Below, in pieces: positions 9,890 to 32,252 of a stretch of 64,000 bases of DNA. The position numbers and the translations under genes were made by a program. Numbering within the stretch: position 1 is the first letter of the stretch; each line of letters starts with the position of its first letter. Below the pieces are notes generated by a model. It had not been told where the DNA came from, searched no databases, and worked only from the letters and a program-made list of their open reading frames with translations. This stretch comes from Prosthecobacter dejongeii (GTDB lineage Bacteria > Verrucomicrobiota > Verrucomicrobiia > Verrucomicrobiales > Verrucomicrobiaceae), in the NCBI RefSeq assembly GCF_014203045.1, contig NZ_JACHIF010000001.1, positions 930,001 through 994,000 of the forward strand, given 5' to 3'.

Positions 9890-10020
9890 TAGACCCGTTT
9901 CCAAAAATCTTGCCTTTCTGAAAGGAAATGAAAAGACGGTGAGCCCGCCTCCTAGATTGAAATCGCCCAGGGTGAATTCGTCTTTTCAGCAGACAGTCCG
10001 TTTGAAAAACAGTCAGTGGA
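9890..10020. repeat. Palindromic intergenic element, diverged relative of the one at 16663-16830
   Basis: The left end (9890-9914) matches 22 of 25 positions of the right end of the element at 16663-16830, read from the TAGACC terminus: TAGACC, two variable bases, TTTCCAAAAA, two variable bases, TTG. Inside, TGAAAAGACG (9929-9938) is perfectly complementary to CGTCTTTTCA (9979-9988). The right end (about 9995-10020) is only loosely related to the left in inverted orientation. The element lies between the recA operator and the divergent ligase-like gene, so it probably shares space with the recA promoter. Confidence 0.6.
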
Positions 10021-14686: not shown

Positions 14687-14921
14687 CTGCGACCTCCCCT
14701 CACCCCGAGCCCTTTCGCTTCGCGGCTTTGCAACCCCGCAAGCGGGGCGAGGGAGGACGTATTTTGGCCTTCGTTTGCTGAAGACCAAAGGCACCTTCTT
14801 TACTGTAAATCATCACTCGTTCGCCCTTGCATCTTGAGATTCCACGGCGCTTTCCCTCTCTCCCAAGAATTGGGGGTGCGAAGCCGCGCAGCGAAAGGCC
14901 AAGGTGAGGGGGTGGTCGCAG
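14687..14921. repeat. Imperfect inverted repeat, palindromic intergenic element
   Basis: Arms 14687-14757 and 14851-14921 are inverted copies of each other with scattered mismatches: both begin CTGCGACC, then CCCTCACC, then GCC-TTTCGC, GCGGCTT and CCCC further in. The first 45 or so bases match best. The CCCTCACC...CCCTC style resembles a widespread class of intergenic GC-rich palindromes in bacterial genomes. It fills most of the 406-base gap between xylB and the HNH-like gene; I see no gene in that gap. Confidence 0.65.
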
Positions 14922-15549: not shown

Positions 15550-16482
15550 ATGGCTCGTTCCTTAAACTCTCTCATGAAACCGCTCGATCTTCAGGTCAAT
15601 GGCTACGCAGGCACCGACTTTAACCGCGATGACCTCACGGCCGAGGCGCTGCACCACGCCTGCCACTGCCTGCGTGAAGACGGGTGTGACGCTATTTTAG
15701 CCACCTTTATCACGGATGATGTGGCCACGCTGGAACGGCGCATGAGCACCCTGGTCAGGCTGCGTGAAAAGGATCCCCTAGCGCAGGAGGTCATCGCAGG
15801 CATCCACATCGAAGGACCGTTCATCAACCCTGAAAAAGGCTATGTCGGCGCCCACCCCCCCCAATGTGTGAAGCCGGCAAACCTGGAGGATACCAAGCGC
15901 CTGCTGGATGCTGCGGGTGGCCTGACCAAAATCATCACCCTGGCCCCAGAGCATGATGAAAACTTCCACGTCACGGAGTTTCTCTCCAGCAACGGGGTCA
16001 CCGTTTCTGCCGGTCACTGCAATCCTTCTTTGGAGCAACTGCGCGCAGCCACCGAGCACGGTCTCAGCATGTTTACTCATGTGGGCAATGGCTGCCCCAT
16101 GCTGATGCATCGGCATGATAACATCATTCACCGTGCCCTGGCCCTGCGGGATCGGCTCTGGCTCTGCTTCATCCCAGATGGCGTCCACATTGATTTCTTT
16201 GCGCTGATCAACTACCTGCGCAGCGCTGGGCTGGAGAAGACCATCTTTGTCACCGATGCCATCTCGGCCGCCCGTCTCGGCCCTGGCAATTACACCCTCG
16301 CGGGCTGGGACATCAAAATTGGCGAAGACCTCGTGGCCCGTTCTCCAGATGGATCTCACTTTGTCGGCAGCACCGTCACCATCCCGCGCATCCTATCCAA
16401 TGGGCAGCAATCTCTGGGCCTGACGAAAGCCGAACTCGAGCTGCTGCTGGATACAAATCCGCGTAAGGCCGTGGGGTTGTGA
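15550..16482 (+). CDS. nagA: N-acetylglucosamine-6-phosphate deacetylase-like amidohydrolase
   Basis: The 310-residue protein has the NagA order of motifs: DLQVNGYAGTDFN, GIHIEGPFINPEKGYVGAH with the metal ligand Glu88, SAGHCNPS with a metal-binding His, FTHVGNG with another, PDGVHIDF with the substrate His, and VTDAISAARLGPG with the catalytic Asp. It would remove the acetyl group from GlcNAc-6-phosphate in amino-sugar catabolism or wall recycling. It is about 70 residues shorter than typical NagA because it starts directly at the barrel and lacks the N-terminal small beta domain strands. An ATG at 15574 (MKPLDLQVNG) is an equally good start. Confidence 0.85.
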   Translation: MARSLNSLMKPLDLQVNGYAGTDFNRDDLTAEALHHACHCLREDGCDAILATFITDDVATLERRMSTLVRLREKDPLAQEVIAGIHIEGPFINPEKGYVGAHPPQCVKPANLEDTKRLLDAAGGLTKIITLAPEHDENFHVTEFLSSNGVTVSAGHCNPSLEQLRAATEHGLSMFTHVGNGCPMLMHRHDNIIHRALALRDRLWLCFIPDGVHIDFFALINYLRSAGLEKTIFVTDAISAARLGPGNYTLAGWDIKIGEDLVARSPDGSHFVGSTVTIPRILSNGQQSLGLTKAELELLLDTNPRKAVGL

Positions 16483-16503
16483 GCCAAATCTTCCAGGCTC
16501 TTA

Positions 16504-16626
16504 TCAGCCGCCATTCATGGCCTGAAGGAAGAGCCACAAGGCTAGCAGCAGCATGGGCAGCATTTGCAGGGGCGAGGCATCAGAAGAAGGGTCCGCATTC
16601 ATGGCATTCAGAAGGTTTGGGTTCAT
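16504..16626 (-). CDS. Possible small single-pass membrane protein, 40 residues
   Basis: A short frame encodes a polar N-terminus (MNPNLLNAMNADPSSDASP) followed by a continuous hydrophobic stretch LPMLLLALWLFLQA and MNGG. The sharp polar/hydrophobic division is like real small membrane proteins. No ribosome binding site or known family is visible, and it overlaps nothing else. It could be chance; the call is tentative. Confidence 0.3.
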   Translation of the reverse strand: MNPNLLNAMNADPSSDASPLQMLPMLLLALWLFLQAMNGG

Positions 16627-16662: not shown

Positions 16663-16830
16663 TAGACCGATTTCCAAAAAGATTGTCCGGTTGAAAAGGC
16701 AGGCGCGGCGGGATGAGTGGCAAGGCAAGAGCGCAGGCTGCTATCTTGATGATAACAGCCAAGTGAGTAACGCCGCCAATCGTCCCGCCCCGTCGCCGCT
16801 TTTCGGACAAGGTTTTTGGAAACCGGTCTA
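16663..16830. repeat. 168-bp palindromic element with 27-bp terminal inverted repeats (MITE-like)
   Basis: The first 27 bases (16663-16689) and the reverse complement of the last 27 (16804-16830) agree at 24 positions; both read TAGACCG, TTTCCAAAAA, two variable bases, TTGTCCG. Further in, GGCGGGA...TGGC stretches pair, and the centre is a hairpin, GGCTGCTATC (16736-16745) against GATAACAGCC (16751-16760), 9 of 10 paired. The whole element can fold into one long stem. It has no coding capacity and stops four bases before the end of the oxidoreductase gene. A relative lies beside recA (9890-10020). Mobilisation in trans is inferred. Confidence 0.75.
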
Positions 16831-16834
16831 AAAT

Positions 16835-18016
16835 TCAAAGTCTCGTCAGCGGGTGCTGGCGATCCTTCAGCGGCAGTTCCACCCGCTGGCCATGGAGGCG
16901 ATGGGATTCAAAGATACCCATCGTCATCTCCAGGGTCACTCGTGCGTCCTTAGCACTGCACAGAGGCTCACGTCCTTCGGCGATGGCGGCCAGGAGATCA
17001 CGCCCTGGGGCTACATGGCCACCCACCAGCTTGCGCATGTTTTCCAGAGGTTCTGGTTTGCCGATGCCTGCGGTGGAGATGGGCACCCAAGCACGTGGTT
17101 CAGCCACGGGATCAAAGGGGCTACCCGGCAGGAAATGAGCCACCGGCTCTTCATCAATCCGCAGGTCAATGATTCCTTCTGTGCCGATGATCTGCACGCC
17201 AAAGCCCGCTGTCTTGGTCCCGGCGTTTTGCACTGAATCAAAAAAAGCGGGCAGGCCATCGGCCATCTCAAAGCGGGCATGCACCTCATTCCCGGCCAGA
17301 GGGCCGATGCCCTCTGCACCCTCTTTTACATCGGCCTTTGTCACCAGACGGCTGTCTTGGTAAACGGTCGCTAGGCAGGCCCGCGGCTCTCCCGCGAAGT
17401 AGTGGACCAAGTTGAAAAGGTGGGAGCCTAGCACCCACAGGTCCAGGGAGCCGCCCCGGGCATCTTCTTTACCACGCACCCGATACTCCAGCGGACGACC
17501 GATGGTGCCTTCGGCGATGAGCTTTTTCAGCAAAGGCAGCACGGGGTGATAGCGGTTCCGGTGAGCCAGAGCGACCTTGGTGCCATGTTTTTCACAGGCG
17601 GCGATGATTTCATCTGCCTGGGTGAGGGTAGGCACGAAGGGTTTCTCCATGTAGATGCCGCGCACGCCAGCCTCAATGGCGGCCAGGGCCATCTCATGGT
17701 GCTGATCAATGTGCCGGGGGCCGATGGCCACGATGTCTGGGCGAGTCTCCTTCAGCATCTTGCGATAATCCGCAAAACCTTGGTCAAGCTTCAGCTTTTT
17801 CAGCGCTCCGGCCAGGCCCTTCGCATCCGCATCTGCCACGGCTACGATTTCCGTTTCAGGGATGTCCAACCACATGGTATCCAGCCCATGACCGAAATTT
17901 CCCCGTCCCGTGTGGCCGATCACAGCCACTCGGCTTTTCGGCGCCGCCGCACTCCAGAGAGCCGGCGCAGACAGGGAAGAAACGAAGGAGGTAGCGAGGA
18001 AAGCGCGGCGGTTCAT
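16835..18016 (-). CDS. Gfo/Idh/MocA family oxidoreductase with Tat-type signal
   Basis: The 393-residue protein begins MNRRAFLATSFVSSLSAPALW, a twin-arginine signal, followed by a Rossmann domain (SRVAVIGHTGRGNFGHGLD), the MEKPFVP motif typical of the family, and a C-terminal alpha/beta substrate domain. The Lys of the EKP motif is the usual catalytic residue. Such exported Gfo/Idh/MocA proteins are abundant in Planctomycetes and Verrucomicrobia and are thought to act on sugars with bound NAD(P), but the substrate cannot be told here. It stands alone, with a MITE-like element touching its 3-prime end. Confidence 0.9.
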   Translation of the reverse strand: MNRRAFLATSFVSSLSAPALWSAAAPKSRVAVIGHTGRGNFGHGLDTMWLDIPETEIVAVADADAKGLAGALKKLKLDQGFADYRKMLKETRPDIVAIGPRHIDQHHEMALAAIEAGVRGIYMEKPFVPTLTQADEIIAACEKHGTKVALAHRNRYHPVLPLLKKLIAEGTIGRPLEYRVRGKEDARGGSLDLWVLGSHLFNLVHYFAGEPRACLATVYQDSRLVTKADVKEGAEGIGPLAGNEVHARFEMADGLPAFFDSVQNAGTKTAGFGVQIIGTEGIIDLRIDEEPVAHFLPGSPFDPVAEPRAWVPISTAGIGKPEPLENMRKLVGGHVAPGRDLLAAIAEGREPLCSAKDARVTLEMTMGIFESHRLHGQRVELPLKDRQHPLTRL

Positions 18017-31347: not shown

Positions 31348-32252
31348 GTGAGATCGCCACCCTTGAACTGACACACCTCCAGTTAGGCCAGGCGGCGGTG
31401 ACTCGGGAGGATGTGGTGGCGCGGGAAGAACCACTGGAGATCCGCGTGGAGGGCCGCAGCGTGGCCGTGGTGATGCGCACACCAGGGCATGATGAAGAGC
31501 TGGTGGCCGGGTTTCTGGTCACGGAAGGCGTCGTCACCCGAGCCCGCGACATCCTGGAAATCTCCCAGTGCCCGAGCGTGAACAACGAATTCGGTAACAT
31601 CGTGGACGTGCTGCTGGGCGGGGCCGTGGTGAACTGGGAATCGCTGACCCGCCATGTCTTCAGCGCCTCGAGCTGTGGTCTGTGTGGCAAGACGAGCATT
31701 GAGTCCGTGTTTCAGAAATTCACGCCGCTCGCCGGGGACCAGTGTTCAGTGTCCAGTGTTCAGTCTTCAGTCCCCGAAGCAGCGCCTCTGAATACTGAAC
31801 ACTGTAAACAGAACACTGAACACTCCGCTCCACAAGTCAGCCAGGAACTGATCTCCCAACTGCCCGCCAAGCTCCGCGCTGCGCAGGAGACTTTTTCCAA
31901 GACGGGCGGGCTGCATGCGAGTGCGCTTTTTGATCTGGAGGGAAACCTCATCGTGCTGCGGGAGGATGTGGGGCGCCACAATGCCCTGGACAAGGTGCTG
32001 GGCTACGCGCTGCAGCGGAACTTGCTGCCGCTCTCGCAGCACATTTTGTTAGTCAGCGGGCGGGTTTCTTTTGAGATCATGCAAAAGGCCCTCGCTGGCG
32101 GCATCCCCATCCTAGCGGCGATTTCTGCGCCCAGCAGTCTGGCGGTGGACTTTGCGCGCGATTCAGGCCAGACTTTGATCGGCTTTCTCCGGGGGGAGAC
32201 CATGAACGTGTATGCGCACCCCGGACGCCTACTTTCTCCAACTCAGCCCTAA
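31344..32252 (+). CDS. fdhD: Formate dehydrogenase accessory sulfurtransferase FdhD, with an in-frame insertion
   Basis: The 302-residue protein has the catalytic pair SSCGLCGKTS (Cys111, Cys114) that relays sulfur from a desulfurase to the molybdenum cofactor of formate dehydrogenase, along with FLVTEGVV and LREDVGRHNALDKVLG. Residues about 131-162 are a Ser/Gln/Asn/Cys-rich low-complexity insertion absent from normal FdhD; it comes from an inverted CAGTGTTCAGT repeat that stays in frame. The core motifs on both sides are intact. The gene is coupled to lpxK by a four-base overlap, and no formate dehydrogenase gene is visible in the window. Confidence 0.92.
   Translation: MSEIATLELTHLQLGQAAVTREDVVAREEPLEIRVEGRSVAVVMRTPGHDEELVAGFLVTEGVVTRARDILEISQCPSVNNEFGNIVDVLLGGAVVNWESLTRHVFSASSCGLCGKTSIESVFQKFTPLAGDQCSVSSVQSSVPEAAPLNTEHCKQNTEHSAPQVSQELISQLPAKLRAAQETFSKTGGLHASALFDLEGNLIVLREDVGRHNALDKVLGYALQRNLLPLSQHILLVSGRVSFEIMQKALAGGIPILAAISAPSSLAVDFARDSGQTLIGFLRGETMNVYAHPGRLLSPTQP
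31741..31824. repeat. Inverted CAGTGTTCAGT-type repeat inside fdhD
   Basis: The left arm (31741-31770) is built of AGTGTTCAGTGTCC and CAGTGTTCAGTCTTCAG units; the right arm (31788-31824) is their inverse, ending GAACACTGAACACT. Seventeen bases separate the arms. The repeat is in frame and without stops, so it lengthens the FdhD protein rather than destroying it. Similar AGTGTTCAG tracts are scattered in other bacterial genomes. Confidence 0.8.

Follow-up and report, generated by a model that had tools for sequence, protein, structure and literature searches.

A Dispersed Palindromic Element With IS630-Type Ends in Prosthecobacter and Related Verrucomicrobiaceae

The Element and Its Locus

The window analyzed is a stretch of 64 kb (G000:C1:930001-994000), and G000, its own genome, is represented by a 96%-complete assembly. 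At positions 16663–16830 of the window, the spacer of two convergent genes contains an imperfect palindrome of 168 bp, to which no strand is assigned. The left neighbor, on the plus strand (15550–16482), is an N-acetylglucosamine-6-phosphate deacetylase-like (nagA-like) gene, with a match to TIGR00221 (E = 1e-46) that lies below the curated cut-off, and it points toward the element. The right neighbor is a Gfo/Idh/MocA-type dehydrogenase-like gene on the minus strand (16835–18016). Its end at 16835 agrees with the initial annotation, in which the element stopped four bases from a gene end.

The 168 bp include a TA at each end (16663–16664 and 16829–16830, neither with a strand). These outermost TAs are part of a target-site duplication, and the mobile unit proper consists of 164 bp (16665–16828) plus TA. 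The left terminal inverted repeat (TIR; TAGACCGATTTCCAAAAAGATTGTCCG, 16663–16689, plus strand) and the right one (TAGACCGGTTTCCAAAAACCTTGTCCG, 16804–16830, minus strand) match at 24 of 27 positions, exactly as had been claimed, and the right one also matches IS630 ends. The paired inner stretches and the central hairpin described earlier are both present on the plus strand: the left arm CGGGATGAGTGGC (16709–16721) pairs with the right arm GCCAATCGTCCCG (16775–16787), and between them lies the hairpin GGCTGCTATC-loop-GATAACAGCC (16736–16760). A 24/27 end match at a spacing of 60–260 bp occurs at one other place in the window (14711), and the palindrome is the longest imperfect inverted repeat listed for the window by the repeat finder, with arms at most 250 bp apart. 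Folded as single-stranded DNA with 20 bp on each side, the element reaches −54.3 kcal/mol versus −29.2 ± 3.2 kcal/mol in dinucleotide shuffles (z = −7.9), and none of the 200 shuffles folded equally well.

The absence of coding capacity, also proposed initially, holds in that the element has no gene of its own, whereas three of the six reading frames are open throughout its length. Open frames running through the element are reported for other bacterial MITEs. Its G+C content is 54.8% (57.7% in the window), so it lacks the A+T richness that is usual in bacterial MITEs without being a defining trait. YPAL is likewise not A+T-rich (PMC2229807). A known structured RNA family was rejected as the identity of the element, as no Rfam family matched anywhere in the window at the gathering threshold. 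A RAYT-associated REP/BIME sequence was also rejected, since these are palindromes of 20–40 bp with a GTAG/CGTC tag and the unit here has 168 bp, 27-bp TIRs, and a TA duplication.

Several other features of the window were recorded. Adjoining the element, on the minus strand at 16501–16624, there is an open frame of 40 codons (MNPNLLNAMNADPSSDASPLQMLPMLLLALWLFLQAMNGG) with a hydrophobic stretch, which possibly encodes a small membrane protein; the stretch around it is 87% kept in the related genome G033. A second long imperfect palindrome at 14690–14920 (arms 14697–14737 and 14872–14912) belongs to another dispersed repeat family. At E ≤ 1e-4 the own genome gives 40 matches to it, which are 70–92% identical (itself excluded) and often partial. 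Upstream of recA, a lone MITE-like end (TAGACCCGTTTCCAAAAATCTTGCC, 9890–9914) differs from the end pattern by one mismatch; a second end to match it is absent, the 160 bp around it occur only once, and it is probably the relic of an old MITE copy in the recA promoter region. Finally, short repeats of the CAGTGTTCAGTGT type are found in direct and inverted order at 31740–31824.

Dispersed Copies and Empty Sites

The element is not single copy. The genome search proposed in the initial annotation revealed dispersed copies, namely 17 long ones plus fragments in the own genome (E from 8e-93 to 3e-26, 75–100% identity). The long copies are spread over nine different contigs in both orientations, and the ten best preserved have a mean pairwise identity of 93%. 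Both terminal repeats are present in most copies, and two core variants exist, with ~162–168 or ~173–175 bp between the outer TAs.

For the detection of empty sites, the joined flanks of copies were aligned to G033, the closest relative compared. G033 lacks the element at the window locus, so that neither of the findings named in the initial annotation as refuting a MITE, a single copy or identical placement in relatives, was obtained. The junctions, ACTTGCAGAAA[TA]AAATTCAAAG in the own genome and ACTTGCCGAAA[TA]GAATTCAAAG in G033, align continuously with a single TA. One TA in the empty site versus two in the filled site indicates that the insertion duplicated TA, which is the target-site duplication that was sought. 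Copies L007 and L004 likewise gave clean single-TA empty sites, which makes three in all. For five others (L064, L077, L005, L006, and L002), homologous flanks were found with junctions too diverged to place the empty site. One copy of the own genome (L003) and one of G033 (L085) are flanked by the same genes, mirrored in their order. They represent one insertion that predates the split of the two genomes, and it is the only insertion of the own genome seen in common with G033.

The palindrome could in principle be a chance or single-locus structure, such as an old inverted duplication or an attenuator. Nothing beyond its appearance in a single window favors such an origin, and it is refuted by the dispersed copies and the empty site, so that its probability is negligible.

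Placement Relative to Genes

Placement was determined for 63 elements located outside genes, with both neighbors called by a simple hexamer model. Of these, 38 lie between convergent genes and only 2 between divergent ones. Convergent spacers hold 24% of the intergenic TA sites in the window (binomial p = 7e-10 for 38/63), a baseline that derives from one 64-kb window. Some copies of different genomes may share a common origin, as L003 and L085 certainly do. Relative to co-directional genes, the orientation of the elements shows no bias (12 sense vs. 11 antisense). The convergent bias appears to be caused by purifying selection. The RUP, BOX, SPRITE, and IS elements of pneumococcus are biased in the same way, which has been interpreted to mean that insertions are tolerated when they lie downstream of genes (PMC3049150).

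A stop codon is the exact site of about 15 insertions, which is a slight excess only (15/62 vs. 14%, p = 0.03). Because the element starts with TA-G, a TAA stop whose TA serves as the target becomes TAG. For instance, the stop codon at L004 is TAA in the relative without the element and TAG at the filled site.

Distribution and Subfamilies

Of 56 related genomes covered by a DNA search, 14 contain the family, and these all belong to the same genus; another search added further genomes. The end pattern matched 18 of 68 Verrucomicrobiaceae genomes from four genera, and a reversed control pattern gave no hits. When 84,980 named GTDB genomes were scanned, Verrucomicrobia records accounted for 31 of the 33 hits, including Brevifollis gellanilyticus and Prosthecobacter MAGs. 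The remaining two, in Clostridia, are probably due to chance, with about two random matches expected by a rough count.

The family is composed of distinct host-specific subfamilies: copies of the own genome are 72% identical to those of G022 and 69% to those of G016. The 14 copies of G016 (L270–L283) have a mean identity of 98.2%, with seven identical pairs. Such near-identical copies point to recent spread.

Other elements were observed during these searches. G034 contains several copies of a different element of ~94 bp with related ends TAGACCAATTTCCAAAATGAATGTC (L286, 95–189; L287, 134–228), which could be a second MITE family using the same transposase group. In G076, an element of 525 bp (G076:C3:305127-305651; L288, 128–652) has ends TATACCGATTTCCAAAAAG and no evident transposase, and similar ends recur elsewhere in that genome. 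At L258 (G022:C8:147045), another MITE copy has a MITE-like end a short way upstream of it, which may be due to insertion of one element beside or into another.

The Partner IS630 Element

A transposase encoded elsewhere in the genome had been suggested as the possible mover of the element. A transposase with matching ends does exist in the same genus, though none was found in the window's own genome. The GTDB scan yielded one record (L093) in which two ends oppose each other over a distance of 1129 bp and enclose a transposase gene of 344 aa. The same 1129-bp IS is intact in G022 (L124), a genome that also has at least 14 MITE copies. The L093 and L124 elements have TIRs of type TAGACCGGTTCTCAAAAAGAATGTC, matching at 26 of 30 positions, with TA on both sides. 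A further IS with both ends is present in genus g23 (L140), G069 has an intact transposase gene (L139), and broken copies are located in G010 and G064. The transposase belongs to the IS630 family (NF033545, 202 bits against a cut-off of 100; DDE_3, 98 bits), and the partner IS has the attributes of this family: a DDE transposase, TA as target, and terminal repeats.

The MITE ends are ~76–96% identical over 25–30 bp to the ends of intact IS630 elements of the genus; in the window copy, the first 25 bp of the left end are 84% identical to them. The motif TAGACy..TT..CAAAA is kept even in more distant IS630 elements of the order. Similarity between MITE and IS is confined to the terminal 25–30 bp and is nowhere else convincing. 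As it stops there, a derivation of the MITE from the IS by simple internal deletion was rejected.

When an intact transposase with matching ends was looked for in the own genome, none was found. The IS630 relics there are ~48% identical and have different ends, and the intact IS630 element (L061) has other ends too, so that these elements were rejected as the partner. The own subfamily has TTTCC ends, whereas the known partner IS has TTCTC ends. With only relics or other-ended IS630 elements at hand, the TTTCC subfamily is without a visible partner in the 96%-complete assembly, and the family looks orphaned there. In the nearly complete G016 (six contigs), no matching intact transposase was found either, despite the near-identical MITE copies. 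Such a pattern would fit a recent burst by a transposase that has since gone or was foreign.

Because neither genome has a matching intact transposase, one may ask whether a different, non-IS630 transposase moved the element and the resemblance of the ends arose by chance or convergence. This is very improbable, given the identity of the ends to intact IS630 elements within the same genus, the recurrence of their motif in the more distant relatives of the order, and the TA target common to MITE and IS, whose copies are TA-flanked.

Maintenance of the Palindrome

Covariation was studied in 31 elements from at least 16 genomes with a structure of 43 pairs, in which 92.7% of the cells are paired. 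Compensatory changes are evident, as 18 of the 43 pairs are altered on both sides. Double-change cells number 99 versus 34.7 in shuffles (about 3-fold) and at most 23 when slid. Recognition of both ends by a transposase is expected to produce covariation in the terminal repeats. Such recognition gives no explanation for the inner helix, which alone has 35 double changes versus 8.4 in shuffles, with 7 of its 12 pairs altered on both sides. The palindrome is thus kept across species by compensatory changes, which could result from selection for structure or from a mutational repair of the arms.

With regard to selection, and in line with the RNA/DNA structure offered as an alternative in the initial annotation, the element may have been domesticated, its hairpin being kept as an RNA or DNA structure of the host (for instance, a bidirectional terminator or an RNase III/E processing site between convergent genes) and its mobility being history. 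The compensatory changes in 18 of 43 pairs and in the inner helix agree with this, as do the 38 of 63 copies between convergent genes against 2 between divergent ones. On internal branches, moreover, G-T exceed A-C mismatches by ~12:1, as expected of a single-stranded RNA structure. On terminal branches the two are equal (28:25; Fisher p = 0.006 for internal vs. terminal branches), which indicates neutral decay; these mismatch counts, like those of the double changes, are small and stem from parsimony on a tree of short sequences. Domestication is also contradicted by the placement of the copies, since the element is absent from the window locus in G033 and a single own insertion was seen in common with that genome. 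Folding energy favors no strand consistently, the plus strand being better in only 38 of 63 copies, and a search of the element for a terminator pattern called none, by which a bidirectional terminator was rejected. In addition, RUP and plain IS elements are likewise biased toward convergent spacers, with no host function involved (PMC3049150). Overall, domestication is unlikely.

Alternatively, template switching between the arms during replication would re-copy one arm from the other, and the palindrome would be kept without structural selection. This process has been established in microbes, where it is able to maintain the pairing of stems (PMC8794818; for the quasipalindromes of E. coli, PMC7202029). 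It also suits the terminal branches, which carry 9 matched double changes versus 1.6 expected though their decay looks neutral; the counts are small, however, and unsampled intermediates would mimic double changes. The G-T/A-C asymmetry of the internal branches is left unexplained by it. Template switching has a little less than an even chance of being the cause. It concerns only the persistence of the palindrome and is compatible with the MITE explanation.

The asymmetry would be accounted for if the hairpin of one element strand were needed for the element's own propagation, a proposal that we hold to be improbable. Multiplying lineages would then keep G-T and avoid A-C in the stem, and inserted copies would decay without bias. 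If true, it would imply a transcript or a single-strand intermediate in the life cycle of IS630-type MITEs, which lies outside the accepted cut-and-paste model.

Discussion

The feature is almost certainly a copy of a non-autonomous MITE family of the IS630/Tc1-mariner type, found in Prosthecobacter and related Verrucomicrobiaceae and probably served by a transposase in trans. All the checks proposed in the initial annotation came out in favor of its MITE reading, which has direct support in the dispersed copies, the TA duplication with its empty sites, the ends in common with intact IS630 elements and their transposase in the same genus, and the placement bias. The element has the properties by which bacterial MITEs are recognized: less than 300 bp, no transposase gene, TIRs, dispersed copies, a TA duplication, and ends shared with IS630 elements (in relatives).

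Most likely, the family spread by borrowing an IS630 transposase. A full-length IS630-family element would supply the transposase in trans, which would bind the ~25-bp terminal repeats (TAGACCnnTTyyCAAAAAnnnTGTC), cut the MITE out, and insert it at a TA, which would thereby be duplicated. The interior, unrelated to the IS, would be inherited as a MITE lineage, giving rise to host-specific subfamilies and preserving the long near-palindrome. Surviving insertions would mostly be those downstream of genes and between convergent genes, where they do the least harm. We infer that mobilization takes place in trans and that the window's genome has lost the partner.

These results add a MITE family from Verrucomicrobiota, none such having been found in the literature searched. 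Copies, TA duplication, empty sites, and partner IS are all documented for it, a completeness of evidence that other bacterial MITEs often lack. The results also suggest that, in several hosts, a MITE lineage can persist after its partner transposase is gone or make use of a borrowed one. The many diverged yet alignable subfamilies are a natural experiment on the upkeep of a near-palindrome, in which structural selection may be weighed against template-switch repair.

Among known systems, RUP of pneumococcus, whose partner is IS630-Spn1, resembles the window element in its size class (~100–200 bp), the terminal repeats in common with an IS630-family element, the TA target, the extensive base pairing, and the enrichment between convergent genes (PMC2229807, PMC3049150). 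The window element differs in sequence, host phylum, and size (168 vs. 107 bp), its G+C content is near the genome average, its partner is absent from the own genome, and its family is spread over many species of one genus plus related genera. The Correia elements (NEMIS/CREE) of Neisseria, likened here by description alone, also have TA at their termini and terminal repeats of ~24–26 bp, with a length of ~105–155 bp, a hairpin-forming transcript, and length variants of the core (PMC2229807, PMC2649163). The core variants of the window family differ by ~6–7 bp and not by 50 bp, and no counterpart is claimed for the IHF site and the RNase III cleavage of Correia elements. ERIC/IRU of enterobacteria (127 bp) is similarly intergenic, with TA termini and a long stem-loop, whereas its terminal repeats are shorter, its sequence is other, and its partner transposase is not known (PMC2229807). 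With the IS630 family itself (NF033545), the window MITE matches in ends and TA target within the same genus; it has no transposase gene, however, and its interior does not derive from the IS. By its size, TA termini, repeats, IS630 partner, folding, and placement, the element is a MITE of the RUP/Correia/ERIC kind (PMC2229807, PMC3049150, PMC10969869), and, with good support, it represents a new family within a known class of bacterial elements.
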